From: Clostridia bacterium
GTDB lineage: Bacteria; Bacillota; Clostridia; Christensenellales; Borkfalkiaceae
DNA length: 39,856 nucleotides
Assembly: GCA_017501885.1 (NCBI GenBank)
Contig: JAFVWA010000158.1
Span: 1-39,856 of the forward strand
Direction of reading: 5' to 3'
In this document: one piece after another, positions 13,518-31,759 of the stretch
Position numbering within the stretch: position 1 is the stretch's first letter
Layout of the letters: the number at the start of each line of letters is the position of its first letter
Made by a program: the position numbers and the translations under genes
The notes under the pieces: generated by a model
Database searches by the model: none
Seen by the model: the letters and a program-made list of their open reading frames with translations, nothing else
What the model was told of the DNA's origin: nothing

Positions 13518-13685
13518 TTACCAATCGTCTTTTGGCGTAAGTTTTATATCATCGTAATACTCAAAATATTTTTCCTTGTCAGAAAGCGACCTTTCATCAT
13601 TCATTTCTTCGGGATACATTGCATCTTCTTCTACGCTATCCGCTTGTCGCATATAGTCGTATTGTGTTTTGAACTTTTCTGGCAT
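13518..13685 (-). CDS. Small acidic protein overlapping the feoB end
   Basis: A 55-residue frame, MPEKFKTQYDYMRQADSVEE at the start and ending IKLTPKDDW, not recognised as any known family. It is rich in Asp, Glu and Tyr, with no membrane segment or cysteine. AAAGGTGGAG lies just before the ATG. It overlaps the last 55 bases of feoB in another frame and ends 6 bases before the bidirectional terminator, so it fills exactly the space between the feoB stop and the terminator. That placement and the site argue for a real third gene of the feo operon, perhaps an accessory factor; without comparison across genomes this remains a proposal. Confidence 0.55.
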   Translation of the reverse strand: MPEKFKTQYDYMRQADSVEEDAMYPEEMNDERSLSDKEKYFEYYDDIKLTPKDDW

Positions 13686-15875: not shown

Positions 15876-16385
15876 TTAATCTACTAATTCAATAATAGCA
15901 ACTTCGGCAGCATCGCCCTTACGGGGTCCTAACTTATAAATTCTAGTGTAGCCACCGCCTTGACCTTTTTCTTCTTTACGAGCTGCATATTTTGGTGCAT
16001 ATTCGTCAAAGATTTTTTCAATCAAAGGATATTTAATTGCCTTAGTTCTCTTTTTGAAATCAGGCTTACTTTCTTTAAAACCCTTAACTTCCTGAAGATC
16101 GTTAACAAGAGACATAATTTTTCTTCTTGCATTAAGTTTCTTATTGCCATCCTTAACGAGAACTTTTGAAGTTTCCTTACCCTTTGCGTCTGCAACCTTA
16201 ACTTCTGTTTCAACAGTATCAGTATAGGTGTTTACTGCAAGAGTAATGATTTTAGCAACGTATGAAGCAACTTCTTTTGCTCTTGCTTCAGTAGTTTGAA
16301 TCTTACCGTTCCATAAAAGAGCGGAAGCTTGATTTTTGATGAGCGCTAATCTTTGTGTAGCGTTAACTCCTAATTTTCTAGCCAT
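15876..16385 (-). CDS. rplQ: Ribosomal protein L17
   Basis: A 169-residue L17 that binds 23S rRNA near the exit tunnel. The conserved start MARKLGVNATQRLALIKNQA and the ending GGGYTRIYKLGPRKGDAAEVAIIELVD are clear. It is about 50 residues longer than the usual 115-120 because of a lysine-rich insertion (about residues 60-135) containing KVADAKGKETSKVLVKDG. Long L17 forms are known in some Clostridia. It is the last gene of the superoperon, 4 bases after rpoA. Confidence 0.97.
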   Translation of the reverse strand: MARKLGVNATQRLALIKNQASALLWNGKIQTTEARAKEVASYVAKIITLAVNTYTDTVETEVKVADAKGKETSKVLVKDGNKKLNARRKIMSLVNDLQEVKGFKESKPDFKKRTKAIKYPLIEKIFDEYAPKYAARKEEKGQGGGYTRIYKLGPRKGDAAEVAIIELVD

Positions 16386-16389
16386 TGGT

Positions 16390-17346
16390 TTAATCCTCCT
16401 TCTCCTTCAATTTAAGCTTTAGACTCTCAAGTTTGAATATAACTTCATCAAGAGACTTTTTGCCCAAATTGCGGACTTTAAGCATGTCATCTTCCGTCTT
16501 TCTGGTTAAATCTTCAACCGTGTGAATACCTGCTCTCTTTAAGCAGTTATAAGAACGAACAGATAAATCTAATTCTTCGATAGTCATTTCAAGAATCTTT
16601 TGTTTTTGATCTTCTGGTGGTGGAACTAAGATGTTGCCCTTAATACCAACTTCTGACAATGAAACGAACATGTTAATATGTTCTTCCATAACTTTAGCTG
16701 CAAGGCTAACAATGTCTTTTCCAGAAAAAGCACCATTCGTCCAAACTTCTAACGTAAGTTTATCAAAGTCAACGCTTTGACCAACACGAGTAGCGGTTAC
16801 GTTGTAACTTACCTTTTTAACGGGGGTGTATATACTGTCAATTGCAATATTGTCAATTATATCAGTCTTATGTTCATCAGCACCTTCGTATCCACGGCCC
16901 TTACCAATAGTAAGTTCCATATCGATCTTTCCACCTTCGTCAATAGTGCAAAGGTAATGATCTGGATTAAGAATTTCAAGGTCAGCATCACAAGCAATAT
17001 CTCCTGCTTTAACAACAGCGGGACCTTCCTTGTAAAGACGAACGTTCTTTTGATATTCTTTTTCCGTGCTTGTCGACTTAATAGCAACGCCTTTAAGATT
17101 AAGAATGATTTCAGTTACGTCTTCCTTTACGCAAGGAACAGCTGATAATTCATGCTTAATGCCTAATTCTTCAGCAAACTTAATGTTTTGAATAGCAACA
17201 CCAGGAAGTGCCGACAACAAAATTCTGCGTAATGCGTTACCTAAAGTAAGACCAAAACCTTTTTCTAAAGGTTCAACGACAAACTTTGCATAACTTCTTT
17301 CTTCATTTTCTTCCACTGCTATTTTTGGTTGTTCAATTTCCATCAT
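16390..17346 (-). CDS. rpoA: RNA polymerase alpha subunit
   Basis: A 318-residue alpha subunit. The N-terminal dimerisation domain (about 1-230) has GFGLTLGNALRRILLSALPG at 31-50; the C-terminal domain has SVRSYNCLKRAGIHTVEDL and the NLGKKSLDE helix-hairpin-helix, which contacts UP elements and activators. AAGGAGG lies 9 bases before the first of two adjacent ATG codons, so I keep 17346. A strong 73-base RNA stem-loop occupies the gap to rpsD. Confidence 0.98.
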   Translation of the reverse strand: MMEIEQPKIAVEENEERSYAKFVVEPLEKGFGLTLGNALRRILLSALPGVAIQNIKFAEELGIKHELSAVPCVKEDVTEIILNLKGVAIKSTSTEKEYQKNVRLYKEGPAVVKAGDIACDADLEILNPDHYLCTIDEGGKIDMELTIGKGRGYEGADEHKTDIIDNIAIDSIYTPVKKVSYNVTATRVGQSVDFDKLTLEVWTNGAFSGKDIVSLAAKVMEEHINMFVSLSEVGIKGNILVPPPEDQKQKILEMTIEELDLSVRSYNCLKRAGIHTVEDLTRKTEDDMLKVRNLGKKSLDEVIFKLESLKLKLKEKED

Positions 17347-17373
17347 AAGAAATTACCTCCTTAATAAATAGTT

Positions 17374-17446
17374 TCGATATAGGTTTTTTGAGAATTCTTG
17401 TTAGAGCCGTGGAAAACCCTATCTTTCCCCTCAAAAAACCCATCGA
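17374..17446 (-). promoter_or_regulatory. Long RNA stem-loop between rpsD and rpoA
   Basis: An inverted repeat brackets 37 bases. GGTTTTTTGAG (17382-17392) pairs perfectly with CTCAAAAAACC (17430-17440), and outside it TCGAT (17374-17378) pairs with ATCGA (17442-17446). A small inner hairpin, GGAAA/TTTCC, is possible. It is not followed by a T run on the minus strand, so it is not a plain terminator. It could be a processing site or a protein-binding element controlling rpoA-rplQ. Confidence 0.65.
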
Positions 17447-17464
17447 ATAAAAATTGTTATTTAA

Positions 17465-18088
17465 TTATTTAGAATACAATTCGACGATCATGTGTTCTGC
17501 AATCGTGATGTCGATATCTTCTCTTACAGGGTTAGCAAGAATTTTACCTTCTAAGGTTTCAGGGTTGAATTCTAACCATTTAGGCATGTTGCCAACTTTC
17601 ATGGTTTTGATTTCAGCGAAGTATTTGTTATCTTTCTTGCTTTCTTTAACAGCGATAACGTCGCCAACTTTAACACAATAAGAAGCGATATTTACGTTTT
17701 TGCCATTAACGGTGAAATGAGCATGTGTTACTAACTGACGAGCTTGGCTTCTTGAAGAACCAATACCCATTCTGAAAATAACGTTGTCAAGTCTTCTTTC
17801 TAAAAGAGAAAGCATATTTTCACCGGTTATACCCTTCATACGGTCAGCCTTTTCATAATACTTTCTGAATTGACCTTCCAATACGCCGTAAATTCTCTTA
17901 CACTTTTGCTTTTCGCGAAGTTGTAAACCGTATTCAGAAACCTTCTTTCTTCCCATACCGTGTTGACCAGGAGCAACAGGTCTCTTTTCAAAAGCATAAA
18001 CGCCCTTAAAGCATCTTTCGCCTTTTAAGAAAAGTTTAGCACCTTCACGTCTGCATAAACGACATTTAGATTCTGTATATTTAGCCAT
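17465..18088 (-). CDS. rpsD: Ribosomal protein S4
   Basis: A 207-residue S4, a primary 16S rRNA binder that nucleates the 30S body. The N-terminal region [18 protein letters not shown] has Cys9, Cys12 and Cys26, but the fourth zinc ligand of zinc-type S4 (position 31) is tyrosine. The S4 RNA-binding domain [20 protein letters not shown] is at about 92-111. It sits inside the alpha cluster, whereas in Bacillus subtilis rpsD is separate. In many bacteria S4 represses its own operon. Confidence 0.98.
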
Positions 18089-18102
18089 TTTTCAATCCTC
18101 CG

Positions 18103-18492
18103 TTATACTCTACGTTTTTTAGGTGGTCTGCAACCATTGTGAGGAATGGGTGAAACGTCTTGAATTAGCGTAACTTCCATATCGCAATTGGTTAATGCTC
18201 TGATAGCAGATTCTCTACCTGCACCAGGTCCCTTAACGTAAACTTCTACCGAGCGCATACCTTGTTCTCTTGCAACCTTGCCAGCTGCTTCAGCTGCCAT
18301 CTGAGCTGCAAATGGGGTGCTCTTTCTTGAACCCTTAAAACCAAGGCTACCAGCACTTGACCAAGAAACTGTGTTTCCTTGCATGTCGGTAATAGTAACT
18401 AAAGTATTGTTGAAAGAAGCCTGGATATGAACTTGTCCTTTATCCACTTTTCTGGCATCTTTACGTTTTTTAACAACTTGTTTTGCTGCCAT
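18103..18492 (-). CDS. rpsK: Ribosomal protein S11
   Basis: A 129-residue S11 of the 30S platform, part of the E-site and Shine-Dalgarno helix cleft. Seen: the basic start, [29 protein letters not shown], and the invariant ending [21 protein letters not shown] on the + strand (AGGAGGT on the mRNA) precedes the ATG. It lies between rpsM and rpsD as in other Firmicutes. Confidence 0.98.
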
Positions 18493-18511
18493 AATTAACT
18501 ACCTCCTTCCC

Positions 18512-18889
18512 TTATCTAGTTGCGGTCTTTTTCTTAGCAACCGTGCGACGAGGACCTTTTCTGGTTCTCGCATTTCTCTTGGAACTCTGTCCTCTTACAG
18601 GAAGGCTCTTTCTGTGACGAACACCTCTGAAACAGCCAATTTCAATCAATCTCTTAATTGAAAGACTAACTTCAGAACGCAAATCACCTTCTACGTGAAG
18701 GTTGTGTTCGATATATTCTCTGAGCTTAGCTACATCGCCTTCGCCCAAATCTTTAACTCTAACGTCTGGGTTTACACCCGTTTCTTTGATAATTTTCTTT
18801 GCCGTAGGAAGTCCAATACCGTAAATATAGGTAAGACCGATTTCAACTCTTTTGTTGTTAGGCAAATCAACACCGGCTATACGTGCCAT
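18512..18889 (-). CDS. rpsM: Ribosomal protein S13
   Basis: A 125-residue S13 in the head of the 30S subunit, contacting tRNA and bridging to L5. [26 protein letters not shown] starts the protein, [14 protein letters not shown] is the core motif, and the tail [18 protein letters not shown] is highly basic. The 129-base gap before it, after rpmJ, holds a small hairpin (18994-19000 with 19005-19011) and a strong CGGAGG site but no gene. Confidence 0.98.
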
Positions 18890-19018
18890 TAAATACCTCC
18901 GTATTTTTTCCTTAAAATATTTTTTATATATAAATGCCTAAAAGTTTTTATACCCTGGAATGGTGGTTATGCTAATAGGCGGTTGTTTTCAAATTTACCC
19001 TAACGGGCAAAAATGGGA

Positions 19019-19135
19019 TTAACCCTGTCTTTGTTTGTGGTTTTTGTTCTTAGAACAAATAACCATAACTTTTCCGTTTCTCTTAATAACTTTGCACTTA
19101 TCGCACATTGGTTTTACTGAAGGTCTAACTTTCAT
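19019..19135 (-). CDS. rpmJ: Ribosomal protein L36
   Basis: A 38-residue protein starting [20 protein letters not shown]. The zinc ribbon is complete: Cys11, Cys14, Cys27 and a late His ([10 protein letters not shown]). It is the zinc-binding form, one residue longer than the common 37 because of an extra residue before the histidine. AGGAGAT precedes the ATG on the mRNA. It lies between infA and rpsM as expected. Confidence 0.95.
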
Positions 19136-19167
19136 TTTAATATCTCCTTTGGAATTTAGTTTATGCT

Positions 19168-19389
19168 TTAATTTTTGCTACGCCAGGTTATTCTACCCTT
19201 GGACAAATCGTATGGGCTCATTTCAAGTTTAACTTTATCACCAATTATTATTCTAATATAATGCTGACGAAGTTTACCAGAAAGGTGAGCTGTAATAATA
19301 TGACCGTTGGAAAGTTTTACCTTGAATACTGCATTTGGTAAGGTTTCAACTATCACACCTTCGGTTTCAATTACGTCTTCCTTAGACAC
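19168..19389 (-). CDS. infA: Translation initiation factor IF-1
   Basis: A 73-residue OB-fold protein that occupies the A site during initiation. [20 protein letters not shown], the [18 protein letters not shown] core and the RITWR ending are diagnostic. AGGAGG lies upstream of the ATG. It is preceded by its own extended -10 promoter and a leader of about 100 bases with hairpins, so infA and the alpha genes can be transcribed separately from the S10-spc part. Confidence 0.97.
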
Positions 19390-19412
19390 AAACTTTATCC
19401 TCCTTAAGTTTT

Positions 19413-19492
19413 TAGGCCATAGCCTTTTATGAACGGAAAAGCAAAACTTTTACCGTATCAAGTTAAGAAAACAAAATTTATTTGCTTAACTT
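19413..19492 (-). promoter_or_regulatory. Structured leader of infA
   Basis: Three inverted repeats occur in order in the mRNA leader: AAGTTAAG/CTTAACTT (19485-19492 with 19460-19467), ACGG-AAAAG against CTTTT-CCGT with one bulge (19433-19456), and AGGC/GCCT (19413-19425). No T run follows any of them, so termination is not implied. They could stabilise the mRNA or mediate feedback. Confidence 0.45.
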
Positions 19493-19496
19493 ATTT

Positions 19497-19505
19497 ATTA
19501 TAACA
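19497..19505 (-). promoter_or_regulatory. Extended -10 promoter of infA
   Basis: TGT-TATAAT on the minus strand (19505-19497) is a TGn extended -10 element. No good -35 box lies 17 bases upstream, as is common for extended -10 promoters. It lies between map and infA. Confidence 0.6.
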
Positions 19506-19562
19506 TATTTTTTTGAAAAACGTTAGTTTTTTTCAACACTTTTTTGCAAAAAAATTAATTTT

Positions 19563-20309
19563 TTACAAAGTAAGTATCTCTACGCCGTCATCTGTGATGA
19601 CAACCGTGTTTTCGTAATGAGCAGATGGTTGTCTATCTTTTGTTCTAACACCCCAACCGTCAGACATGAAATCAACTTTAAAAGTTCCTGCGTTGATCAT
19701 TGGCTCAATGGCTATTGCCATTCCCTTTTTAAGTCTAATGCCTGTGCCACGTCTTCCATAATTTGGGACAGACGGATCTTCGTGCATTTCTCTTCCAATA
19801 CCATGACCAGTTAAAGCCCTAACAACAGAAAAACCATTGCTTTCCGCATGACTTTGAACGCTAAATCCAATATCTCCTATGGGAGAACCGTCACGCAAAT
19901 TCTCAATCGCCTTAAAAAAACACTGCTCAGTTACTTCAACAAGTTTTTTCTTTAACGGCGATACTTCGCCTATACAAAAAGTTCTTGCGGCATCACCTTG
20001 CCAACCGTTGTATATAACACCAACGTCTATGCTGACAATTTGACCTTCTCTAATTATTTCGTTATCGGAAGGAATACCATGAACTACCATATCATCAATT
20101 GAAGCACAAATAGATGCGGGATATCCACTATAACCTAAAAAAGAAGGTTCTGCTCCACATGATCTTATAAAATCATACGCAAGAGAATCTAATTCTTTTG
20201 TAGACATACCCGCCCTAATTTGACTTCCTATGAAATCAAGGGTTTCCTTAGTGATTTTTCCACTATCACGCATGCGTTCTATCTGAGCATCCGTTTTAAT
20301 TGTAATCAT
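19563..20309 (-). CDS. map: Methionine aminopeptidase type I
   Basis: A 248-residue metallopeptidase that removes the initiator methionine from nascent proteins. Metal ligands are visible: Asp in SIDVGVIYNGW, Asp in GDAARTF, His in TGHGIGREMHEDP, Glu in AIEPMIN and Glu in HYENTVVI. Its ATG overlaps the adk stop by one base (TGATG), so translation is coupled. There is no N-terminal zinc-finger extension. Confidence 0.97.
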   Translation of the reverse strand: MITIKTDAQIERMRDSGKITKETLDFIGSQIRAGMSTKELDSLAYDFIRSCGAEPSFLGYSGYPASICASIDDMVVHGIPSDNEIIREGQIVSIDVGVIYNGWQGDAARTFCIGEVSPLKKKLVEVTEQCFFKAIENLRDGSPIGDIGFSVQSHAESNGFSVVRALTGHGIGREMHEDPSVPNYGRRGTGIRLKKGMAIAIEPMINAGTFKVDFMSDGWGVRTKDRQPSAHYENTVVITDDGVEILTL

Positions 20310-20929
20310 CAGCCTAAAACCTTTATAATCTCTTCAAAAACTTCATCAATGGATCTATCTCCATCGATAGAACGTAAAGAGCCTTGTTTCTTATAAAAAT
20401 CTATCAATGGTTCTGTATAGTTTCTATAAACCAAAAGACGTTCTCTGATAACCTCAGGTGTATCATCCTTTCTAACGATTAATTTTGCACCGCATTCAGG
20501 ACAATTTTCCTGACTACCTATAAAATCTATATGGAATGAGCCACCACATCTTGGGCAACTTCTTCTACCTGTGATGCGCTTTTCAATTTTACTAAAATCA
20601 ACTTTAATGTCAATTACTACAGTCGGTTTAGCAAAATCTTCAAGAGCTTCCGCTTGATATAGATTTCTTGGAAAGCCATCAAGCAAAAATCCGTTTTTAC
20701 AGTCGTCTTTTAAAAGTCTGTCTTTTACGATTTCACACGTAACGTCATCTGGGCATAAATTACCAGAGTCCATAATAGCTCTAACTTTTATGCCCAAAGG
20801 CGTTTGATTTTTGATGTTTTCTCTGAATATATCGCCAGTTGATATATGGGGAATGTTGTATTTTTCACAAATTTTAGCCGCCTGAGTCCCTTTGCCACAT
20901 CCAGGTGCGCCTAGCAATACGATTTTCAT
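20309..20929 (-). CDS. adk: Adenylate kinase
   Basis: A 206-residue nucleotide kinase that interconverts ATP plus AMP with two ADP. The P-loop GAPGCGKGTQA is at residues 7-17, DGFPRN marks the AMP site, and the LID domain carries a four-cysteine zinc site, CPRCGG and CPECGA, typical of Gram-positive enzymes. It starts 2 bases after the secY stop and overlaps map by one base. Confidence 0.97.
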   Translation of the reverse strand: MKIVLLGAPGCGKGTQAAKICEKYNIPHISTGDIFRENIKNQTPLGIKVRAIMDSGNLCPDDVTCEIVKDRLLKDDCKNGFLLDGFPRNLYQAEALEDFAKPTVVIDIKVDFSKIEKRITGRRSCPRCGGSFHIDFIGSQENCPECGAKLIVRKDDTPEVIRERLLVYRNYTEPLIDFYKKQGSLRSIDGDRSIDEVFEEIIKVLG

Positions 20930-20931
20930 TT

Positions 20932-22227
20932 TTATTTCAAAAACCCTTTATAATTCTTCATCATGATTTGTGATTGAAGTGCTTGTTCAAATTCAAGAGC
21001 AACTGAAACGATAATCAATAAACCGGTAGCACTAAATACGCTTACCAAACCTACTGAGTTCGTAGGGTCAAGTGCTTTGAATATCATTGAAGGAACAAGC
21101 GCTACGAGAGCAAGGAAAATTGCTCCAAACAATGTGATTCTGTTTGATACTCTCTTAAGGTAATCAGCAGTAGGTTTACCAGGACGCGTTCCAGGAATGA
21201 AACCACCGTTACCTTGAATACTCTTACTAATGTCATCAGGATTAAACTGAATCTGATTATAGAAATAAGAGAAGAAAAGTATGAATACACAAAGAATAAT
21301 CATGTATGGCCAAGAACCTGTTCCCATGTTTCTTGTCCACCAGTTGTTGCTAACCCCTACCAAATTCATAATAAGGTCTGGGAAACTTAAAATAGCGAAC
21401 GAGAAGATTAAAGGCATAACACCAGAAGCATTTACCTTAATTGGGATATGGGTAGACTGACCACCATACATCTTTCTGCCCTTAACTTGCTTTGCATATT
21501 GAACGGGAATTTTTCTTTCTGCGGAGTTAACGGTAACAATTGCAGCAAAGATAAGAATTGCTACGATAATGAAACCGATTAAAGTCCATGCAGATTTTGC
21601 AGCTGTTTCAGCTACGAACATTCCTTGAATAAGAGCAAGTATTGCAGAACCTGCAGAAGACAAGATACCAGTAAAGATCAACAATGAAATACCGTTACTA
21701 ACACCGTAGTCGGTTATTCTTTCGCCAATCCACATGGTAAGACAAGCACCTGCGGTATAAACAATAACTAAGAAGAAGTAGCTTAAGAACTTAACGAAAC
21801 CTTCTGAACCGAAAATTTTGTTAGTATCAATAGAACTCTTAAACGCAACGATAATACCAATAGCTTGAACTATTGCGAGAATTAAGGTTATTATTCTCGT
21901 AATGGCGTTAATTTTACGCTTACCTTCTTCGCCTTGTTTAGATAATCTTTCAAGAGCAGGAATACCTACCGTTAAAAGTTGAATAATAATTGATGCGTTG
22001 ATATAAGGTCCAATACCCATAGCGAAGAACGTTCCGTAAGTTAACGCTCCACCGGATACAGCACTCATAATCTGCAAGAAAGTAAAATCTTCTAAACCGC
22101 TAAATACTTCAACACCTGGAACAGGAATATGACAACCAAGTCTATAAACGAATATGAGAGCAATGGTTATAAGTATTTTGCGTCTTACTTCCTTGATTTT
22201 AAACGCATTTACTATTGTCTGAAACAT
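20932..22227 (-). CDS. secY: Preprotein translocase subunit SecY
   Basis: A 431-residue channel with ten membrane segments. Seen: RLGCHIPVPGV near the first segment, GIGPYINASIIIQLL in the second, ERKIPVQYAKQ in the cytosolic region, and the loop SIQGNGGFIPGTRPG that contacts SecA and the ribosome. It lies 21 bases after rplO in the spc cluster. Confidence 0.98.
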   Translation of the reverse strand: MFQTIVNAFKIKEVRRKILITIALIFVYRLGCHIPVPGVEVFSGLEDFTFLQIMSAVSGGALTYGTFFAMGIGPYINASIIIQLLTVGIPALERLSKQGEEGKRKINAITRIITLILAIVQAIGIIVAFKSSIDTNKIFGSEGFVKFLSYFFLVIVYTAGACLTMWIGERITDYGVSNGISLLIFTGILSSAGSAILALIQGMFVAETAAKSAWTLIGFIIVAILIFAAIVTVNSAERKIPVQYAKQVKGRKMYGGQSTHIPIKVNASGVMPLIFSFAILSFPDLIMNLVGVSNNWWTRNMGTGSWPYMIILCVFILFFSYFYNQIQFNPDDISKSIQGNGGFIPGTRPGKPTADYLKRVSNRITLFGAIFLALVALVPSMIFKALDPTNSVGLVSVFSATGLLIIVSVALEFEQALQSQIMMKNYKGFLK

Positions 22228-22248
22228 TTTGCCTCCCCTAAATCTAAA

Positions 22249-22695
22249 TTAGATTTGTTCAGCCTTACCGCCAGCCTTTTCAATAGCTTCTTTTGCAGAT
22301 GCAGAGAAGCGGTCAGCTTTAACGGTAATAGCCTTAGTTAAAGTTCCGTTACCGAGAACTTTCAAGCCAACGCAATCCTTTAATACTTTAATAAGTCCTT
22401 TTTCAGCAAGAACTGCCATATCTACAACTGCGCCTGCTTCGAAAGAATCGAGAACAGAGAGGTTTACGATACTATAAGTTTTTGTAAAATGATTGTTGAA
22501 TCCACGCTTTGGAATACGTCTGATTAAAGGCATTTGACCACCTTCAAATCCAGGACGAACACCGCCACCGCTTCTTGCCCATTGACCTTTATGGCCCTTA
22601 CCACTAGTTTTACCAAGTCCAGAACCAATGCCACGGCCAAGTCTTCTTGCAGGGGTATTTGCGCCTTCAGCGGGACTTAAATTACCTAATCTCAT
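22249..22695 (-). CDS. rplO: Ribosomal protein L15
   Basis: A 148-residue L15 that binds 23S rRNA late in 50S assembly. The glycine- and arginine-rich N-terminal extension [20 protein letters not shown] and the following [18 protein letters not shown] are diagnostic; the C-terminal half is the globular domain. AGGAGAT lies ahead of the ATG. It is followed by secY. Confidence 0.98.
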
Positions 22696-22728
22696 TTTTA
22701 TATCTCCTTAAAATTAACAATTGTCGAC

Positions 22729-22932
22729 TTAAACGTTTTCTACTTTAACAAGATACTTAACTTTTTCAATCATACCTAAAATAGAAGGTGTTGCGTTATG
22801 AATCTTGAAAGAACGAACCTTTTTAAGTCCTAAAGCTTCAACTACTTTCTTATGGTTAGGAAGACAAGCAATGGTGCTTTTTACGAGAGTAACTTTTATT
22901 TGAGAAACTTCCACTTTCTTTGCTTTAGCCAT
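22729..22932 (-). CDS. rpmD: Ribosomal protein L30
   Basis: A 67-residue L30, slightly longer than the usual 58-60 because of a charged start (MAKAKKVEVSQ). The core IKVTLVKSTIACLPNHKKVVEALGL and the ending GMIEKVKYLVKVE match the family. AGGAGGT precedes the ATG. It lies between rpsE and rplO. Confidence 0.95.
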   Translation of the reverse strand: MAKAKKVEVSQIKVTLVKSTIACLPNHKKVVEALGLKKVRSFKIHNATPSILGMIEKVKYLVKVENV

Positions 22933-22946
22933 TTTCAGTTACCTCC

Positions 22947-23468
22947 TTAACCGTTAATTTCTTCGACAGATTTGCCACGAATAGCTGCAATCTGTTCTGC
23001 AGTTCTAAGCGACTTTAAGCCTTCAATAGCTGCTTTTACGCAGTTAATTGGGTTGTTAGTTCCGTGAGACTTTGTTCTAATGTTGGTGATACCAACAGCT
23101 TCCATTACCGCACGAACAGGACCACCAGCGATAACACCGGTACCTTCTTCAGCTGGCATCATAAGAACGAATCCTCTGCCAAACTTGCCTAATACTTCGT
23201 GGGGAATACTGGTTCCTAAAAGTGAAACGGCAAACATGTTCTTCTTTGCTCTTGCAGTAGCCTTATCGATTGCTTCTGGAACTTCTTTAGCTTTACCCAT
23301 TGCGCAACCAATTTTACCAGCACCGTCACCAACTACGACAAGTGCTGCAAATCTCATGTTTCTACCACCCTTAACGGTTTTAGTAACACGGTTAACTGCG
23401 ATAAGCTTTTTAACTAAGCCGTCGTTTTCTTCCGCCCTTCTAGAGGGTCTATTATTTTCTCTTGCCAT
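22947..23468 (-). CDS. rpsE: Ribosomal protein S5
   Basis: A 173-residue S5, involved in decoding accuracy and mRNA helicase activity at the 30S entry. Seen: [40 protein letters not shown], and [23 protein letters not shown] precedes the ATG. It lies between rplR and rpmD. Confidence 0.98.
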
Positions 23469-23489
23469 ATTTATTTTCTCCTTGAATTA

Positions 23490-23858
23490 TTAGAACTGAA
23501 GTCCACCTTTTCTTGCGCCGTCAGCTAAATTAGCTACACGACCGGTGTAAAGATATCCACCACGATCAAAAACAACGGTTTCAATCTTCTTTGACTTTGC
23601 CTTCTTAGCAAGTAATTCGCCAACAGCGAATGCCTGTGCCTTTTTATCCATGCCTTCAAAAGTTCCTTTAAGTTCTTTATCAAGCGTAGACGCCGTAACG
23701 AGAGTGTTTCCCTTAACGTCGTCAATAAGTTGAGCATATATATGGTTTAAAGTCCTATATACAGAAAGTCTTGGGCAAGCAGCAGTTCCACTTACCTTTC
23801 TTCTAACTCTCTTATGCCTTTTTAATCTGTCTTTGTTTTTATTAATCTTATTAATCAT
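23490..23858 (-). CDS. rplR: Ribosomal protein L18
   Basis: A 122-residue L18 that carries 5S rRNA to the large subunit. The basic start [20 protein letters not shown] and [18 protein letters not shown] are typical, with [20 protein letters not shown] near the end. I chose ATG 23858, behind GGAGAT; the open frame continues 14 codons upstream without a site. Two RNA hairpins lie between it and rplF. Confidence 0.97.
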
Positions 23859-23884
23859 TTTTAATCTCCATTTAATAACTTTTC

Positions 23885-23929
23885 GCACTAAAAAGTGCAC
23901 TCGGCAGACGCACCGACTAAAAGTGCGTC
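23885..23929 (-). promoter_or_regulatory. Two RNA hairpins between rplF and rplR
   Basis: GCACT-AAAA-AGTGC (23885-23898) and GACGCAC-N9-GTGCGTC (23907-23929) are perfect stems of 5 and 7 bp. The motif ACTAAAA occurs in both loops and again at 23931-23937. There is no T run after either stem. They may be RNase sites, binding sites, or a spacer that slows ribosomes. Confidence 0.5.
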
Positions 23930-23950
23930 CACTAAAAGCCCTTTAAATTA

Positions 23951-24496
23951 TTAACCTTTACCGCCAGCTGCTTTACCAACCTTTCTATCGATTACTTCAT
24001 CGCTGTAACGAATTCCGTATCCGTGATAAGGTTCAGGTTCTCTAATTCCTCTTACCATAGCAGCGAATTGACCAACTTTTTCCTTGTCAATACCAGCAAC
24101 GGTAATTTCAGTAATAGAAGGACAATCTAAAGTAATTCCATCTATTTCTTCAACTTCTACAGGGTGAGAGAAACCAACGTTTAAAACAACTTTTTTGCCT
24201 TGCTTAGCAACCTTCCAACCTACACCGTTAACAACGAGGGTTTTTTTGAAGCCTTCGGTAACACCCTTAACCATGTTAGCAACGAGAGCTCTATATAAGC
24301 CATGTTTAGCTTTTGTAGGGCCTAAATCATTTGCTCTGGTAAGAACAACCGTGTTGTTTTCAATTTTGAAAGAAATAACTGAATCGTAAGCTTGAGTGAG
24401 AACACCCTTAGCGCCTTTAACAGTTACAACGTTGTCTTTAGCTTCAACAGTTACACCAGCAGGGATAGTAATAGGTGCATTTCCAATTCTTGACAT
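23951..24496 (-). CDS. rplF: Ribosomal protein L6
   Basis: A 181-residue L6 near the sarcin-ricin loop. MSRIGNAPITIPAGVTVEAK starts the first of two similar domains and the ending RGIREPEPYHGYGIRYSDEV is invariant in outline. AGGAGG precedes the ATG. It lies between rpsH and rplR; the 92-base gap to rplR is unusually long for this cluster. Confidence 0.98.
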   Translation of the reverse strand: MSRIGNAPITIPAGVTVEAKDNVVTVKGAKGVLTQAYDSVISFKIENNTVVLTRANDLGPTKAKHGLYRALVANMVKGVTEGFKKTLVVNGVGWKVAKQGKKVVLNVGFSHPVEVEEIDGITLDCPSITEITVAGIDKEKVGQFAAMVRGIREPEPYHGYGIRYSDEVIDRKVGKAAGGKG

Positions 24497-24509
24497 GATC
24501 TATAACCTC

Positions 24510-24896
24510 CTACCAAACGTAAGCGAGCACTTCGCCGCCCTGATGAACTTTCTTAGCTTCCTTACCGGTCATGATGCCCTTAGAAGTAGAAAGGATTGCA
24601 ATGCCAAGTCCGCCTAATACTTGTGGAACTTCATCAGTTCCAACGTAAACGCGGAGACCAGGCTTACTAACTCTCTTTAATCCGGTGATAACCTTGTTGC
24701 TACCGTCGTATTTGAGAGTAATTTTAATAGTGCCCTGAACACCTTCGATAATTTCTACAGCAGAGATATAGCCTTCTTTAAGAAGAATGTCTGCAATAGC
24801 TTTCTTAGTGTTAGATGCGGGAATTTCAACAGTTTCATGCTTAGCCATAAGAGCATTTCTTATTCTTGTAAGCATATCTGCAATAACGTCTGTCAT
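24510..24896 (-). CDS. rpsH: Ribosomal protein S8
   Basis: A 128-residue S8, a primary 16S binder. [20 protein letters not shown] starts the protein, and the end [20 protein letters not shown] contains the RNA-contact loop. I chose ATG 24896, 8 bases after AAAGGAGG; a GTG/ATG-like upstream extension of seven codons overlaps the S14 end and is less likely. In Escherichia coli S8 represses the spc operon; no such target was recognised here. Confidence 0.97.
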
Positions 24897-24910
24897 TTCA
24901 ATTTCCTCCT

Positions 24911-25096
24911 TTACCAACTAGCCTTTTTAACGCCGGGAATCTGACCTTTGTAAGCCAAATTTCTGAAACAAATACGGCAAATACCATATTTACGGAGAAC
25001 TGCGTGAGGACGTCCGCAAATACTGCATCTAGTGTAGGCTCTGGTAGAAAATTTAGCAGGTCTTTGCTGCTTATAAATCATTGCTTTTTTAGCCAT
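24911..25096 (-). CDS. rpsN: Ribosomal protein S14, zinc type
   Basis: A 61-residue short S14 with the complete zinc ribbon CSICGRPH and [12 protein letters not shown] (C-x2-C, x12, C-x2-C). This is the standard form of S14 in Firmicutes; zinc-independent paralogues are encoded elsewhere in some genomes. AGGAGAT precedes the ATG. It lies between rplE and rpsH. Confidence 0.98.
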
Positions 25097-25114
25097 TTTA
25101 TATCTCCTTTAACC

Positions 25115-25663
25115 TTACTTCGTAGCGAAAGGCATACCGAGCATTGCGAGCAATTCTCTTGCCTCTTCGTCAGTATTAGCCGTAGTGGTGAAACAAATGT
25201 CAAATCCTCTCATTTTTTCTACTTGATCGTAGGAAATTTCAGGGAAAATAAGTTGTTCCTTAACACCCATAGCATAGTTACCTCTTCCGTCAAAAGACTT
25301 CTTAGATACGCCTCTAAAGTCTCTAACTCTTGGAAGAGCGATAGAGATGAACTTGTCAAAGAATTCATACATTCTGGTTCCTCTTAAGGTAACCTTCATA
25401 CCAACACTTTGTCCTTCTCTAATTTTGAAGTTAGCAACAGACTTTTTAGCCATGGTAAGAACAGGTCTTTGACCAGCAATTTGCTTTAATTCTTCTTGAG
25501 CAAGTTGAATACTCTTAGCATTGTCTTTAACGTCGCCAAGACCAGAGTTGATAGTAATCTTAACAAGCTTTGGAACTTGGTTTACGTTTTTATAGTTAAA
25601 TTTCTTTACCAAAGCAGGAACTACGGTCTTATCGTATAACTCCTTAATTCTATTAGTAGCCAT
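25115..25663 (-). CDS. rplE: Ribosomal protein L5
   Basis: A 182-residue L5 that binds 5S rRNA and contacts P-site tRNA and S13. Seen: [50 protein letters not shown], and the ending [22 protein letters not shown] precedes the ATG. It lies between rplX and rpsN. Confidence 0.98.
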
Positions 25664-25677
25664 TTACGTTACCTCCG

Positions 25678-26067
25678 TTATGCCTCAGCAGGCGTTTCAG
25701 CCGCTTCTTTCTTGGTCTTTTTCTTAGCAGTTTTCTTTACTTCTTTAGCTTCTTTAGAAGCATCTAATAAAGCGCCACACTTTTTGCAATATCTAACTTT
25801 CTTGTCGCCTTCAACTTTGTAAGCAACTCTTACAGCCTTATTACATACTGGGCAAACTACCAATACGTTAGAAGCATCAATTGCACCAGATTGGTTAACG
25901 ATAGAGCTAACTTCCTGAGCAGTTCTAGCTTTCTTGTGTTTTTTCTGAACATTAACGCCATCAACAACTACTTTGTTATCTTTGGGAAGAGCAACCAAAA
26001 CCTTAGCAGTTTTGCCAGCATCTTTACCGGTTAAAACAAGAACGGTATCATTTTTCTTAACTTTCAT
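25678..26067 (-). CDS. rplX: Ribosomal protein L24 with zinc-ribbon cysteines
   Basis: A 129-residue L24, an early 50S assembly factor. The KOW start MKVKKNDTVLVLTGKDAGK is standard. The C-terminal half carries VCPVCNKAVRV and YCKKCGALL, four cysteines that probably bind zinc and are absent from Bacillus subtilis L24, and then a Lys/Ala/Glu-rich tail (about 110-129) that raises the length above the usual 103-105. Confidence 0.95.
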   Translation of the reverse strand: MKVKKNDTVLVLTGKDAGKTAKVLVALPKDNKVVVDGVNVQKKHKKARTAQEVSSIVNQSGAIDASNVLVVCPVCNKAVRVAYKVEGDKKVRYCKKCGALLDASKEAKEVKKTAKKKTKKEAAETPAEA

Positions 26068-26079
26068 TGCTTTATCTCC

Positions 26080-26448
26080 TTATAACACTTCGGGAGCAAG
26101 AGAGATAATACGCATGTAGTCTTTATCTCTGAGTTCTCTTGCTATCGGTCCAAAAATACGAGTGCCCCTTGGTTGTTTTTGGTTGTCGATAATAACAGCT
26201 GCGTTTTCATCAAATCTAACGTAGGTGCCGTCTTTTCTTCTAACACCGCTGGTTGATCTAACGATAACAGCCTTTACTACTTCACCCTTTTTAACAGTAC
26301 CACCGGGGGTAGCCGTTTTAACGCTTGCAACGATAACGTCGCCAATGTTACCAGTTCTTCTAAAAGAACCGCCCAACACTCTTATACACATTATTTCTTT
26401 TGCACCAGAGTTATCTGCTGCTTTTAATCTAGATTGTGGTTGTATCAT
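26080..26448 (-). CDS. rplN: Ribosomal protein L14
   Basis: A 122-residue L14, part of intersubunit bridges. [20 protein letters not shown] begins the five-stranded barrel, [20 protein letters not shown] follows, and the ending [20 protein letters not shown] is invariant. AGGAG precedes the ATG. It is also the docking face for the silencing factor RsfS in bacteria. Confidence 0.98.
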
Positions 26449-26459
26449 TGTGCGCCTCC

Positions 26460-26714
26460 TTACTTAGCCTTTTCAATGATTTCGGCAACTCTCCAATTCT
26501 TATCCTTGGATAATTTTCTAGTTTCAACGATTAAAACCTTATCGCCTACGCCACATACGTTACCTTCGTCATGAGCCTTAAATTTATGAGTCTTTTTAAC
26601 AGTCTTCTTGTATAAAGGATGTTTAAATCTTTCTTCAATGGCTACGACAACAGTCTTATCCATTTTGTCAGAAACTACGATTCCAACTCTTTCTTTTCTT
26701 AAATTTCTTTCCAT
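26460..26714 (-). CDS. rpsQ: Ribosomal protein S17
   Basis: An 84-residue OB-fold S17, a primary 16S binder. Seen: [20 protein letters not shown], the [19 protein letters not shown] block, and [26 protein letters not shown]-type site precedes the ATG. It lies between rpmC and rplN. Confidence 0.97.
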
Positions 26715-26726
26715 GATCTCACTCCC

Positions 26727-26927
26727 TTACGCCTTAGCACCAAGTTCTTTTTCTCTTAAAATGGTTTTAACCTTTGCAATTTCTTTCTTGCAAGTTTTAA
26801 GGGATGCAGAATTTTCTAATTGTCCAATTGCGTGACGGAAACGAAGGTTAAACAATTCTTCGGAAAGTTCCTTAAGTTTTGCATTCAATTCGTTTACCGA
26901 TAATTCGTGAAGTTCTTTCGTTTTCAT
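26727..26927 (-). CDS. rpmC: Ribosomal protein L29
   Basis: A 66-residue helical protein beside the polypeptide exit, next to the docking site for trigger factor and [23 protein letters not shown] and LFNLRFRHAIGQLENSASLK are typical. Its ATG overlaps the rplP stop by one base (TAATG), giving translational coupling. Confidence 0.97.
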   Translation of the reverse strand: MKTKELHELSVNELNAKLKELSEELFNLRFRHAIGQLENSASLKTCKKEIAKVKTILREKELGAKA

Positions 26928-27373
26928 TAACCTTCACCGCCTTCTTCTTTTATTTGTTCAGCTACAGATTCTCTCTTAACAAACTTTGTTTTAACAGGGA
27001 GTTTGTGTCCAGCGAGTCTCATAGCTTCCTTAGCAATATCTTCAGGGATGCCTGACATTTCGAATAATACTCTGCCTGGTTTAACAACAGCAACCCAGAA
27101 TTCTACAGAACCTTTACCGCTACCCATACGGCTATCGGCAGGTTTCTTAGTTACAGGTTTGTGGGGGAAGATATCAATCCAAACTTTACCACCACGTTTA
27201 ATAAATCTGGTCATTGCAACACGCGCTGCTTCGATTTGGTTAGATTTGATCCAACCAGGTTCGGTTGCAACTAAACCGAAATCACCGTAAGCTATCTTGT
27301 TACCCTTGGTGCATTTACCGGTCATTCTGCCGCGATGAACTCTTCTTCTTTTAACTCTCTTAGGCATTAACAT
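26927..27373 (-). CDS. rplP: Ribosomal protein L16
   Basis: A 148-residue L16 that helps position A-site tRNA. It starts [20 protein letters not shown], the usual MLxPKRV form, and has [20 protein letters not shown] and the basic tract [20 protein letters not shown]. The ribosome site AAGGAGG lies inside the end of rpsC, 12 bases before the first ATG. It lies between rpsC and rpmC. Confidence 0.98.
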
Positions 27374-27375
27374 AG

Positions 27376-28041
27376 TTATGCTTGGCCTCCTTCAACTTTC
27401 TTCTTAGAAGCACCGATAACTTCACCCTTGTATATCCAGCATTTGATACCGATAACACCGAAAGTGGTATGTGCTTCAGCAAAACCGTATTCAATATCCG
27501 CTCTTAAAGTTTGAAGTGGAATAGAACCTTCATGATAGCTTTCGCTACGAGCAATTTCAGCACCGTCAAGTCTTCCGCTTACGGTAACCTTAATACCCTT
27601 AACACCGCCTCTCATAGATCTGCCGATTGCTTGCTTCATAGCTCTTCTGAAAGATACACGCTTTTCGAGTTGAGCAGCGATTCCTTCAGCAACGAGTTGA
27701 GCATCTGCATCAGGCTTCTTAACTTCGGAAATGTTAACCGAAATGTGCTTACCTGGGCAAAGTTTAGCAACTGACTTCTTAATAACTTCAATTTCACTTC
27801 CTTGCTTACCGATTAAAACACCGGGACGAGCAGTATGAATAGTGATTACTAATTTACTTGCTGCCTTTTCGATAAGAATCTTAGAAATAGCAGCTTGATA
27901 GTATTTTTTCTTTAAAAGATTACGGATTTCGTTGTCTTCTTTAACGTTTTCAGCAAAATGCTTCTTGTCAACAAACCAATGAGAATCCCAATCTTTAATA
28001 ATGCCGACTCTTAAACCGTGTGGATTAACTTTTTGTCCCAT
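27376..28041 (-). CDS. rpsC: Ribosomal protein S3
   Basis: A 221-residue S3 at the mRNA entry channel. [20 protein letters not shown] is the standard start, the KH domain contains [20 protein letters not shown] (about 68-90), and the C-terminal domain has [26 protein letters not shown] precedes the ATG. It lies between rplV and rplP. Confidence 0.98.
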
Positions 28042-28053
28042 TATACTATCCTC

Positions 28054-28440
28054 CTATGCCTTTGCATCCAAAACCACGGTAATGTGGCTGGTTCTCTTCA
28101 AAATTCTGAAAGCTCTACCCTGTGCTCTGGGCATAACTCTTTTAAGAGTAGGACCTTGGTCTGCATAACATGCAGCAACAAACAAGTTGTCCTTGCTCAT
28201 TCCAAGATTGTTTTCCGCATTAGCAGCAGCAGACATCAAAACCTTTTTAATAGGTTCAGAAGCTGACTTGGGAGTGTTTTCTAAAATAGCAACAGCCTGA
28301 GCATAATCTTTTCCTCTTATAATATCAAGAACGATTCTTACTTTATAAGGAGAAATACGAACGTGCTTAGCAACAGCTCTTGGACGTCTGTCTTTATTTT
28401 CCGCAATACGTGCGGTCTTTTCTCTCATATTCTTAGCCAT
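28054..28440 (-). CDS. rplV: Ribosomal protein L22
   Basis: A 128-residue L22 whose beta-hairpin lines the exit tunnel. Seen: [20 protein letters not shown], the helix region with [20 protein letters not shown], and the hairpin [20 protein letters not shown]. The first 18 residues form a basic start longer than in Bacillus. AAGGAG precedes the ATG. Confidence 0.98.
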
Positions 28441-28451
28441 TTTTAATCTCC

Positions 28452-28730
28452 TTATCTAGCACCCGTAGTCTTTTCGCCACCGTGTCCTTTAAAGGTTCTG
28501 GTAGGAGCGAACTCACCAAGTTTGCAACCAACCATATCTTCGGTAACGTATACAGGAACGTGTTTTCTTCCATCATAAACAGCAATAGTATGACCTACCA
28601 TTTGAGGGAAAATCGTAGACGACCTTGACCAGGTTTTCAAAACTTTTTTATCGTTTTTTTCATTTAATTCTTCTACTCTTTTTAAGAGTTTTGGTTCTAC
28701 GTAAGGACCTTTTTTAACACTTCTACTCAT
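28452..28730 (-). CDS. rpsS: Ribosomal protein S19
   Basis: A 92-residue S19 of the 30S head. [20 protein letters not shown] starts the protein and [20 protein letters not shown], then [14 protein letters not shown], are diagnostic. AAGGAG precedes the ATG. It lies between rplB and rplV. Confidence 0.98.
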
Positions 28731-28740
28731 GTCGATCTCC

Positions 28741-29568
28741 TTAATTTATCCTGGTAATGATAAGCTTGTTAGAAGCCTTCTTATGCTTTCTGGTCTTATA
28801 ACCGAGAGCAGGTTTACCCCAAGGGGTAACAGGCCCTGGCATACCGATAGGTGACTTACCTTCACCACCACCGTGTGGGTGATCACAAGGGTTCATTACA
28901 ACACCGCGAACGGTAGGACGAGTTCCCATGTGTCTAGTTTTACCAGCTTTACCAATTCTGATGATTTCGTGTTCGAGATTACCAACTTGACCGATGGTAG
29001 CCTTGCAAGCCGCAAGAATGTATCTCATTTCGCCACTTGGCATCTTAATTGTAACGTATTTTTCGTCTCTTGCCATAATTTGAGCGCTCATACCAGCAGC
29101 TCTTGCGATTTGACCGCCTTTGCCGGGTTGCATTTCAATATTATGAACCATAGTACCTACAGGGATATCTTTAAGAGCAAGTGCATTACCTGCTTTGATA
29201 TCTGCGGTAGGACCGCTTAATAACGTATCGCCAACTTTTAAGCCTACAGGAGCAAGGATATATGCCTTTGCGCCATCAGCATAATATAAAAGAGCGATGT
29301 TTGCGCTACGGTTAGGATCGTATTCGATGCTCTTAACTTTTGCAGGAATACCGTCCTTAGAACGCTTAAAGTCAATAATACGGTATTTTCTTCTGTTACC
29401 GCCACCAATGTGACGAACGGTTATTTTACCCTGAGCGTTTCTACCGCCAGATTTTCTCTGATCTTCGAGAAGGCTTCTTTCGGGCTTAACCGCAGTAATT
29501 TCGTCGTAAGCGCTTACCGTCATGAAACGGCGAGCAGCAGACGTCGGTTTATATCTTTTAATAGCCAT
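28741..29568 (-). CDS. rplB: Ribosomal protein L2
   Basis: A 275-residue L2, essential for subunit joining and the peptidyl transferase centre. Seen: [20 protein letters not shown], the central OB and SH3-like domains, and the C-terminal loop [20 protein letters not shown] that holds the conserved histidine near the catalytic centre. GGAGG precedes the ATG. It lies between rplW and rpsS. Confidence 0.98.
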
Positions 29569-29588
29569 TTTACTTTCCTCCGAGATGA

Positions 29589-29879
29589 TTAAGACAATGA
29601 GTCAAAGAATTCTATAGACTTACTGTCCTTTTTAAGTTGAACAGCAGCCTTTTTGTAGTCGGAAGTGTAACCTTCGTATCTACCCTGTCTCTTCAACTTG
29701 CCGTGGCAATTTGCAGTATTGACTTTGTCAACCTTAACACCGAAGATTTCTTCGATAGCGAGTTTGATTTGAGTCTTGTTTGCATTTTTTGCTACTATAA
29801 AGTAGTATTTCTTGTCTTTAATGCCCGCATAACTCTTTTCAGAAAGAAGCGGTTTAATAATAATATCGTGTGCTAACAT
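29589..29879 (-). CDS. rplW: Ribosomal protein L23
   Basis: A 96-residue L23 at the exit tunnel, the main docking site for trigger factor and [23 protein letters not shown] and [20 protein letters not shown] fit the family; the tail [20 protein letters not shown] closes the fold. Its ATG overlaps the rplD stop by one base, so the two are translationally coupled. Confidence 0.98.
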
Positions 29880-30505
29880 TATTCTCCGTAGACCTCCTTG
29901 ATTTGTTCTACAGCGGTTTTGGAAATAACGATTTTAGCATTTTTAACAACGTCATACGTGTTGATTTGGCAAGCTGGAATAGTGCTTATAGCTTTGATAT
30001 TTGCGCTTGCTCTTAAAACTGCTTCGTCAGCATTGTCCATAACCATTAAAACGGTCTTTTCTAACTTAAACGCGTTAAGGAAAGCAACCATTTCTTTAGT
30101 TTTTGGAGCATCAACTTTAATTTCGTCGATAAAGATTACTTCGTTATCTCTAATTTTCTGCGAAAGAGCAGAAAAAAGTGCAACTTCTTTAGCTTTTACA
30201 TTCATCTTCTTAGAGAAATCTCTGGACTTTGGAGCGAAAACTACGCCACCCTTAACCCATTGAGGACTTCTAATAGAACCTTGTCTTGCTCTACCAGTTC
30301 CCTTTTGTCTCCAAGGTTTAGCACCACCACCACGAACTTCACTACGGGTAAGAGTGCTTTTTGTTCCTTGTCTTTCATTAGCAAGTCTTGTTACGATTGC
30401 TTGATGAATAACAGGTTCGTTATATTCTGCATTAAATAAAGCATCGGGTAAGTCGATAGTGCCTACTTCGTTTGCTTTCATGTTGTATAATTTTACGCTT
30501 GGCAT
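29879..30505 (-). CDS. rplD: Ribosomal protein L4
   Basis: A 208-residue L4 with the tunnel-lining loop: TLTRSEVRGGGAKPWRQKGT and GRARQGSIRSPQWVKGG (about 50-87). In Escherichia coli L4 also represses the S10 operon by causing premature termination in the rpsJ leader. Such a role is worth considering here because the rpsJ leader has a terminator. It lies between rplC and rplW. Confidence 0.98.
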   Translation of the reverse strand: MPSVKLYNMKANEVGTIDLPDALFNAEYNEPVIHQAIVTRLANERQGTKSTLTRSEVRGGGAKPWRQKGTGRARQGSIRSPQWVKGGVVFAPKSRDFSKKMNVKAKEVALFSALSQKIRDNEVIFIDEIKVDAPKTKEMVAFLNAFKLEKTVLMVMDNADEAVLRASANIKAISTIPACQINTYDVVKNAKIVISKTAVEQIKEVYGE

Positions 30506-30516
30506 AACATTTCTCC

Positions 30517-31149
30517 TTACGCTTTAACGCTGTTTCTCAAAGTAACGATGCCTTTTACAGGGCCTGGAACAGCACCCTTAACAAGGATAACGTTTCTTTC
30601 TGTGTCGACTTTCACAACTTCAAGATTTAATACGGTAACTTTTTCACAACCCCAGTGGCCTGGAAGGTTCTTACCCTTAAATACTCTTGAAGGATTACTG
30701 ATAGCACCCATAGAACCGGGTTCTCTATGCACAGGACCTACACCGTGGGTTTCTTTCAATCTGTGTTGATTCCACTTTTTGATTACACCACTGAAACCAT
30801 GACCTTTAGATACGCCAGAAACGTCAACTTTGTCGCCTGCTGTGAAAACGTCGCAGTTAACAACTGAGCCCACCGTCATGGAGTCGCTACCTTCAAGTTT
30901 GAATTCCTTCAAAACTTTTTGAGGAGCTACGCCTGCTTTCTTAAACAAACCGAGTTGAGGTTTGTTTACGGCTTTTTCGCTGATTTCAGAAAAACCGAGT
31001 TTAACAGCGCAATAGCCATCTCTTTCCAAAGTTTTAACCTGAACTACGGGACATGGACCAGCCTCGATAACGGTTACAGGAATAACTTTGCCGTCTGCTG
31101 AGAAAAGTTGCGTCATACCCAACTTTCTACCAATGATTGCTTTATTCAT
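30517..31149 (-). CDS. rplC: Ribosomal protein L3
   Basis: A 210-residue L3. [20 protein letters not shown] starts it and the long loop toward the catalytic centre contains [20 protein letters not shown] followed by [18 protein letters not shown] precedes the ATG. It lies 41 bases after rpsJ, the widest spacing in the S10 part. Confidence 0.98.
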
Positions 31150-31190
31150 AGATAAAGTTCACCTCCGATATAATATATAATGTTTATTAA

Positions 31191-31490
31191 TTACAATTTG
31201 ATTTTGATATCAACACCTGCAGGCAATTGAATGCTGTCAAGTATCTTCACGTTTGGTGAATAGATATCGATAAGTCTCTTGTGAGTTCTAATTTCGAATT
31301 GTTCACGAGAATCCTTATATTTGTGTGGGGAACGTAAGATAGTAACTATTTCCTTTTCAGTAGGAAGTGGAATAGGACCACTTATTTTCGCACCAGCTTT
31401 CTTCATAGCATCAACTATTTTAGTTGAAGCTTGATCAAGCATTTCTACGTCGTAAGACATAAGTTTAATTCTGATTTTTTGACTTGCCAT
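31191..31490 (-). CDS. rpsJ: Ribosomal protein S10
   Basis: A 99-residue S10, also the NusE antitermination factor. [20 protein letters not shown] and [20 protein letters not shown] followed by [19 protein letters not shown] are diagnostic. AAGGAG precedes the ATG. It is the first gene of the superoperon, downstream of a perfect promoter and a leader with an attenuator. Confidence 0.98.
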
Positions 31491-31557
31491 TTTTGTTTTC
31501 TCCTTTTACCTAACTTAAATTTTGTAAACTCTGCCGTGTGTGTCGAATTAGTAATAT

Positions 31558-31605
31558 AAAAAAAATCATTCGCCGATACTTAATTTTTTAAGTCGCTGCG
31601 AATGA
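31558..31605 (-). terminator. Attenuator in the rpsJ leader
   Basis: Stem TCATTCGC (31605-31598 strand) with GCGAATGA (31573-31566), an inner stem ACTTAA/TTAAGT (31593-31588 with 31583-31578) and a 4-base loop, are followed by eight T residues (31565-31558). It lies downstream of the perfect promoter and 67 bases before the rpsJ start codon. Its 5' arm can pair instead with an upstream CTGCGA, giving an alternative antiterminated fold. Confidence 0.8.
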
Positions 31606-31730
31606 CCTTACTAAATTCAACTGAAGTTAGTCGCAGGAATCATGTCCCCACACTTGTCAACGGAAATTATCTATCGTTTTGCTGACGATTTAAGTAACTT
31701 CCCGTCTCAACCCTTTTACACAGCCTATTC

Positions 31731-31759
31731 ATTATATCGTGTAAAACAACCTTTGTCAA
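31731..31759 (-). promoter_or_regulatory. Promoter of the S10-spc-alpha superoperon
   Basis: TTGACA (31759-31754), a 17-base spacer and TATAAT (31736-31731) on the minus strand match the sigma-A consensus exactly. It lies 50 bases after the clpX stop codon. Confidence 0.9.

Follow-up and report, generated by a model that had tools for sequence, protein, structure and literature searches.

The S10 r-leader of Firmicutes was reportedly described by Yao et al. in 2007. As summarized by Eckert and Weinberg (2020; PMC7247131), this r-leader had been established earlier, and numerous examples from Clostridia were added to it. A second rpsJ motif, RLC-47-1, is outlined as a leader candidate that precedes rpsJ; it was first identified in Clostridioides difficile and is reported from three genera of Peptostreptococcaceae (PMC11109978). 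The S10 leader of Escherichia coli is summarized as a system of L4/NusA attenuation in which both transcription and translation are controlled (PMC10931766). The C. difficile data, according to the summary in the source, lend no support to the E. coli L4 model for the S10-spc-alpha cluster (PMC3933415), and the control of this cluster in Gram-positive bacteria therefore seems unsettled. A literature search, mostly at the level of titles and abstracts, yielded no description of a terminator/antiterminator in a Bacillota rpsJ leader.

The window analyzed here is a stretch of 39,856 nucleotides from a Clostridia bacterium of the family Borkfalkiaceae, and it carries an S10-type leader in front of rpsJ. 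In this leader a ribosomal protein probably binds a conserved core, and a terminator located behind the core probably decides whether the polymerase gains access to the operon. The coordinates of the features are given in Table 1.

Table 1. Features of the rpsJ leader and the gene cluster behind it (positions in the window)
Feature	Positions	Strand	Remarks
Sigma-70 type promoter TTGACA-17-TATAAT	31731..31759	minus	12/12 consensus
Predicted transcription start	G31724	minus	GAATAG after TATAAT, then G31724
P1a, 5'-end strand GCUGUGU	31718..31724	minus	Candidate antiterminator strand; later possible module B partner
Module A, conserved core of S10-type leader (P2 + P3)	31631..31713	minus	R1 match, E 4.2e-7
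P3 hairpin	31632..31652	minus	Fold and variation in relatives
P4a, CUAAC	31626..31630	minus	Pairs with GUUAG 31514-31510
P5a, GAAUUUAGUAA	31608..31618	minus	Pairs with P5b
Intrinsic terminator hairpin	31566..31605	minus	-14.9 kcal/mol
CGCAGC, candidate antiterminator site	31595..31600	minus	Complements transcript 5' end; terminator 5' arm and internal loop
U8 run of terminator	31558..31565	minus	67 nt before rpsJ ATG
P5b, UUACUAAUUC	31545..31554	minus	Partner of P5a
Module B, GACACACACGGCAGAGUUUACA	31523..31544	minus	Conserved element 3' of terminator
P4b, GUUAG	31510..31514	minus	Partner of CUAAC; ends 5 nt before Shine-Dalgarno
Shine-Dalgarno AGGAG of rpsJ	31500..31504	minus	Predicted unpaired in pseudoknot-free ensemble
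rpsJ (S10), first gene of the cluster	31191..31490	minus	ORF list; relatives; ATG at 31490
S10-spc-alpha cluster, rpsJ to rplQ	15876..31490	minus	ORF list

The original prediction had placed a perfect consensus promoter and a 234-base leader before rpsJ, and both hold: the promoter agrees with the consensus throughout and, since TATAAT is followed by GAATAG and then by G31724, the length of 234 nt (31724-31491), counted from this predicted start, is correct. An alignment of 39 leaders from the window's genus and near genera showed that TTGAC is invariant and TATAAT nearly so, and that the 5' GCUGUG, the core, the terminator, and the block GACACACACGG are, like the promoter, near-invariant. The DNA of the leader was matched in 145 of 201 genomes of the family, and the 234-nt leader folded with a z-score of -4.81, none of 200 shuffled sequences being as good. 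The simpler view that the hairpin only stops readthrough from clpX fits badly and is unlikely, as the promoter conserved in the 39 aligned leaders stands between clpX and the hairpin. The weaker promoter that was then supposed to drive rpsJ from past the hairpin was not borne out either: the sole promoter-like site listed between the hairpin and rpsJ scores 9/12, and no conserved -10 element was seen by eye in the 39-leader alignment.

The S10-spc-alpha cluster is a very large ribosomal-protein gene cluster, the largest in this bacterium. Its genes, named rpsJ to rplQ from the look of their sequences, are followed by the terminator-like site with the most pairs (13; 15872-15843, behind rplQ). 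Inside the cluster, there are only weaker terminator-like matches, in a number close to that of shuffled sequences, and the minus-strand promoter-like sites score at most 10/12 except for one of 11/12 at 20613. A putative FeoB-like ferrous iron transporter, named from the look of its ORF, lies after the ribosomal cluster (13631-15562).

From the family of the window, 98 leaders were fetched and 95 parsed (L022, L027, and L208 failed the parser). Those from outside the genus came from genomes with DNA matching the window leader, a sample biased toward similar ones, and the family genera g5, g11, g12, and g15 lie outside it. Leaders were also taken from the order, class, and phylum levels.

The core was described by a model, R1, of 75 positions, built from 33 sequences, none of which belongs to the window's family. 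In these sequences the 16 pairs of R1 are formed in 91.1% of cells, 105 cells are changed on both sides compared with 32.7 in shuffles, and the covariation score is 0.577 compared with 0.251 for shuffled sequences. The window leader was the only R1 match in the window and in its genome. Searches over more than 40 genomes were run with stricter filters, by which weak matches are lost; under these conditions R1 matched 88 of 149 phylum genomes, once each, and 60 of 101 family genomes, with scores close to the cut-off. The core pattern was found in 50 stretches of titled records, 48 of which held rpsJ within the fetched DNA, and in each of these 48 rpsJ followed 29-409 nt downstream on the same strand. 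The matches across the phylum, together with this constant position, assign the leader to a ribosomal-protein leader class of Bacillota. The claim that a clostridial attenuator precedes rpsJ is upheld insofar as a real, conserved leader of attenuator type stands there. The families of Rfam 15 gave no match in the window at the gathering cut-off, the best match near the leader having an E value of 1.4 and 18.2 bits, where the gathering score is 49.9.

The core also bears a weak likeness to Bacillota 23S rRNA (GGGAUGA...CGGAGAAAUUCCAAUCGAACUCGGAGA). When R1 was run without filters on six Bacillota 23S loci, the best E value was 0.025, and the same homologous place was matched in five of the six (L286, L287, L289, L290, and L291), with scores of 16.3, 14.1, 12.7, 9.7, and 5.5 bits. 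This place was not among the matches listed for the sixth locus, L288, the best of which (E 0.044) lay about 60 nt upstream, at a place matched also in L289. The best match in E. coli 23S rRNA was at another place (E 0.61). The matched region is presumably domain II, about H32 to H35a. As a route to the name of the ligand, rRNA mimicry was set aside, as the matches are too weak (E 0.025 at best); the likeness is no more than a lead to possible rRNA mimicry. In the assembly of the window's genome no 23S rRNA gene was found, and the assembly is therefore probably an incomplete draft.

The terminator, a stem with eight T residues 67 bases before rpsJ in the original prediction, is as described there. 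All bases of its arms (31605-31598/31573-31566) pair, and above them come an internal loop AGCG/AUCG and an upper stem. An automatic terminator scan of the window did not list the hairpin 31605-31566, probably because of the internal loop. A hairpin with a U run stands at this place in all 95 parsed family leaders, with a sequence that varies between genera. With a threshold of -8 kcal or below for a hairpin directly before the U run, 85 of the 95 leaders were counted compared with 6 of 90 shuffled segments; the hairpins of the remaining 10 range from -5.7 to -7.9 kcal. The sequence of the hairpin, including the AGCG/AUCG loop, is conserved beyond the needs of a terminator in the genus of the window and three genera close to it.

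Outside of the family, a count by position, which took in 18 of the 40 leaders from the order, 25 of the 40 from the class, and 8 of the 20 from the phylum, showed terminators to be no commoner than in shuffles at the order level (1/18 vs 5/54) and commoner at the class level (12/25 vs 8/75), where 9 of the 12 precede module B. A count over 200 nt of unparsed sequence gave 89/98 vs 26/196 shuffles for the family, 7/40 vs 14/80 for the order, 24/40 vs 13/80 for the class, and 8/19 vs 6/38 for the phylum. Since the order-level terminators do not exceed the shuffles, attenuation is not universal in the leader class; either some lineages acquired the terminator or others lost it. In Pelosinus and some other relatives nothing separates the end of the core from the Shine-Dalgarno sequence, as expected of translation control, and in others a terminator-like hairpin of different sequence (GCCCAGG...CCUGGGUUUUU) lies between the core and module B. 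It seems from this that the expression platform of one and the same leader type varies from lineage to lineage.

These comparisons bear on the possibility that the leader acts on translation only, the hairpin being a fixed partial terminator or an unregulated structural arm. Such a reading agrees with the relatives in which no terminator intervenes between the core and the Shine-Dalgarno sequence, with the order-level counts, and with the end of P4 5 nt before the Shine-Dalgarno sequence. Within the family, however, the hairpin and its U run are retained in every parsed leader despite the change of sequence between genera, and a purely structural arm would need no U run. We therefore regard control of translation alone as unlikely, and the conserved leader with its embedded terminator probably serves to tune the ribosome supply by early termination.

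As the antiterminator, the original prediction named CUGCGA (31636-31631), most of which is supplied by the 3' strand of P3, and UCGCAG (31601-31596) in the terminator arm, with ACUAA/UUAGU stacked inside. The complementarity is indeed exact, the inner match is also present, the isolated hairpin has -9.0 kcal, and the 6-bp stem is paired in 238 of the 240 cells that 40 leaders provide. There were, however, no compensatory changes in these leaders, and both strands also serve P3 and the terminator; the inner stem is paired in only 133 of 200 cells, and its UUAGU fits P5 instead, for which none of 5000 permutations was as good. Covariation had been proposed as the check on both stems: a hairpin with a U run is kept in 95 of 95 parsed leaders with changes of sequence between genera, and the alternative stem shows no compensatory change. 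When the CUGCGA strand was paired with the terminator region, the result was above the shuffled mean in 6 of 14 genera, by about 1 S.D. or less (-9.5 vs -8.6, S.D. 2.3, in the window's genus), and below it in 8. The stem would also cost P3. It is thus very unlikely that CUGCGA/UCGCAG is the antiterminator.

The 5' end of the transcript is a better candidate. In the predicted fold of the nascent leader, before the 3' arm of the terminator is made, GCUGUG/CGCAGC is chosen at -35.9 kcal, enclosing P2, P3, and H, whereas forcing CUGCGA/UCGCAG gives -30.8 kcal, i.e. 5.1 kcal worse. The short hairpin H (31631-31610) recurs in the genus, as judged by eye. In 12 of 14 genera, pairing between the 5' end and the terminator region surpasses the shuffled mean, and a complement scoring at least 5.5 in that region was found in 65 of the 74 leaders with GCUGUG before the core compared with 1 of the 21 others. 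The complements observed were CGCAGC, ACACAGC, ACACAGU, CACAGC, GUACAGC, and GUGCAGC. The 65 leaders are spread over 11 genera, with a mean fraction of shuffles as good of 0-0.19 per genus. Where a terminator type is shared through common descent, the genera do not count as independent cases. The nine GCUGUG leaders lacking a complement belong to g3 (seven) and g9 (two). In g3, g7, and g9 the complement of the 5' end is absent and the terminator is kept; for g3 and g9, shuffles gave the better pairing. Local antiterminator hairpins considered in g3, g7, and g9 were weak (mean z -1.18, -0.63, and -0.59, respectively). The signal is unremarkable in the window's own genus, where a mean fraction of 0.12 of shuffles does as well and the stretch following module B reaches 5.8 compared with 5.5 in the terminator, and in g10, where the core scores 5.9 compared with 5.8 in the terminator, so that the case for a 5'-end antiterminator rests on the other genera.

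Three long-range pairings connect the parts of the leader. P4 was counted with fixed letter patterns for both strands (GTT, one letter, and G, nearest the start codon), and among 95 leaders it takes the form CUAAC/GUUAG in 85, CGAAC/GUUCG in 7, CGGAC/GUUCG in 1, and CUAGC/GUUAG in 1, one leader being partnerless. Both main forms occur in the genus g9, each with its matching partner. In permutation tests at the order (17 leaders) and class (23 leaders) levels, none of 5000 permutations was as good. The two strands of P5 lie on either side of the terminator and pair with each other over it, UUAGU pairing 3' of the U run. Among 40 leaders no permutation out of 5000 equalled it, and the own pairing exceeded the mean of the swapped ones in 29 of the 40 leaders and in all 14 genera, in g10 only just (-2.1 vs -1.9), in part because too little sequence remained there after the cut. 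The core, P4, P5, and the terminator are supported by covariation or conservation.

P1 is the pairing of ACACGGC in module B with the 5'-end GCUGUGU, and it is present in the predicted fold of the leader. None of 5000 permutations was as good, either over all 95 leaders or over g3, g7, and g9 together. Within single genera, 32 of 5000 were as good in g9 and 116 in g7; P1 had no support inside g3 (2647 of 5000). As P1 and P4 cross, the full leader would be a pseudoknot. In module B of the 39 leaders, GACACACACGG is nearly invariant and the other positions less so. In 7 of 14 leaders with long core matches (L271, L272, L275, L278, L279, L280, and L284), a module B of the type GAYACRCCCGR lies inside the apical part of P2 and not downstream of the core; L281 and L282 have a looser form. 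This is apparently a subdomain at a different place of the same leader; on the relay reading put forward below, module B would be a movable subdomain, located inside the P2 loop in some other Bacillota. The rpsJ leaders L158, L164, and L170 have a module-B-like element and no core by pattern in 430 nt, and in L088, L107, and L110 such an element is found about 240-255 nt upstream of rpsJ, the intervening sequence being unexplained.

Taken together, the results point to feedback by a ribosomal protein through attenuation, probably joined to translation control. The nascent leader would fold its core, where a ribosomal protein of the operon would bind. With the polymerase between the two terminator arms, GCUGUG would pair with CGCAGC and close a multi-branch structure around the core, which would favor read-through; excess protein would disturb this closure, and the terminator could then form. 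Once the polymerase has read through, the 5' strand would be free to pair with module B. P4 would bring the Shine-Dalgarno sequence near the core, and since this geometry is that of the relatives whose core adjoins the Shine-Dalgarno sequence, a second, translational layer is likely; through P4, an excess of protein would also block translation of the RNA that has been read through. It is highly improbable that a sensor of growth rate or elongation factors (polymerase speed, NusA, nucleotide pools) governs read-through with no ribosomal protein involved: a 5'-end pairing favored only before the terminator 3' arm is made would suit such kinetic control, but the conserved core before rpsJ in 48 of 48 stretches resembles ribosomal-protein leaders.

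A more elaborate form of the protein-feedback reading can be put forward tentatively, with the odds rather against it: the first seven nucleotides may act as a relay, antiterminating around the protein-bound core and then passing to module B, where together with P4 they would make up a pseudoknot placing the ribosome-binding site beside the core. If this were true, a single ribosomal protein would be sensed on two occasions, at termination and later at translation.

In comparison with the described systems, the leader is very likely identical with the published Firmicutes S10 r-leader, as judged by gene, phylum, and position rather than by alignment. As far as the summary of that r-leader goes (PMC7247131), the two share the gene, the phylum, and a structured conserved RNA directly before rpsJ; the core lies upstream of rpsJ in the 48 stretches and in the window, and its covarying structure extends across Bacillota, including Clostridia. 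RLC-47-1 (PMC11109978) is alike in being a leader candidate before rpsJ. The likeness to the E. coli S10 leader is one of outline, comprising a structured leader, an intrinsic terminator inside it, and probably control of both transcription and translation. A difference from E. coli is that the terminator here lies within long-range stems and a downstream element. The leader has a compact architecture of a core, an embedded terminator, two candidate alternative partners of the 5' end, and a stem that would place the ribosome-binding site. This looks like a leader type already predicted in Bacillota, inside which the family of the window has kept a terminator.
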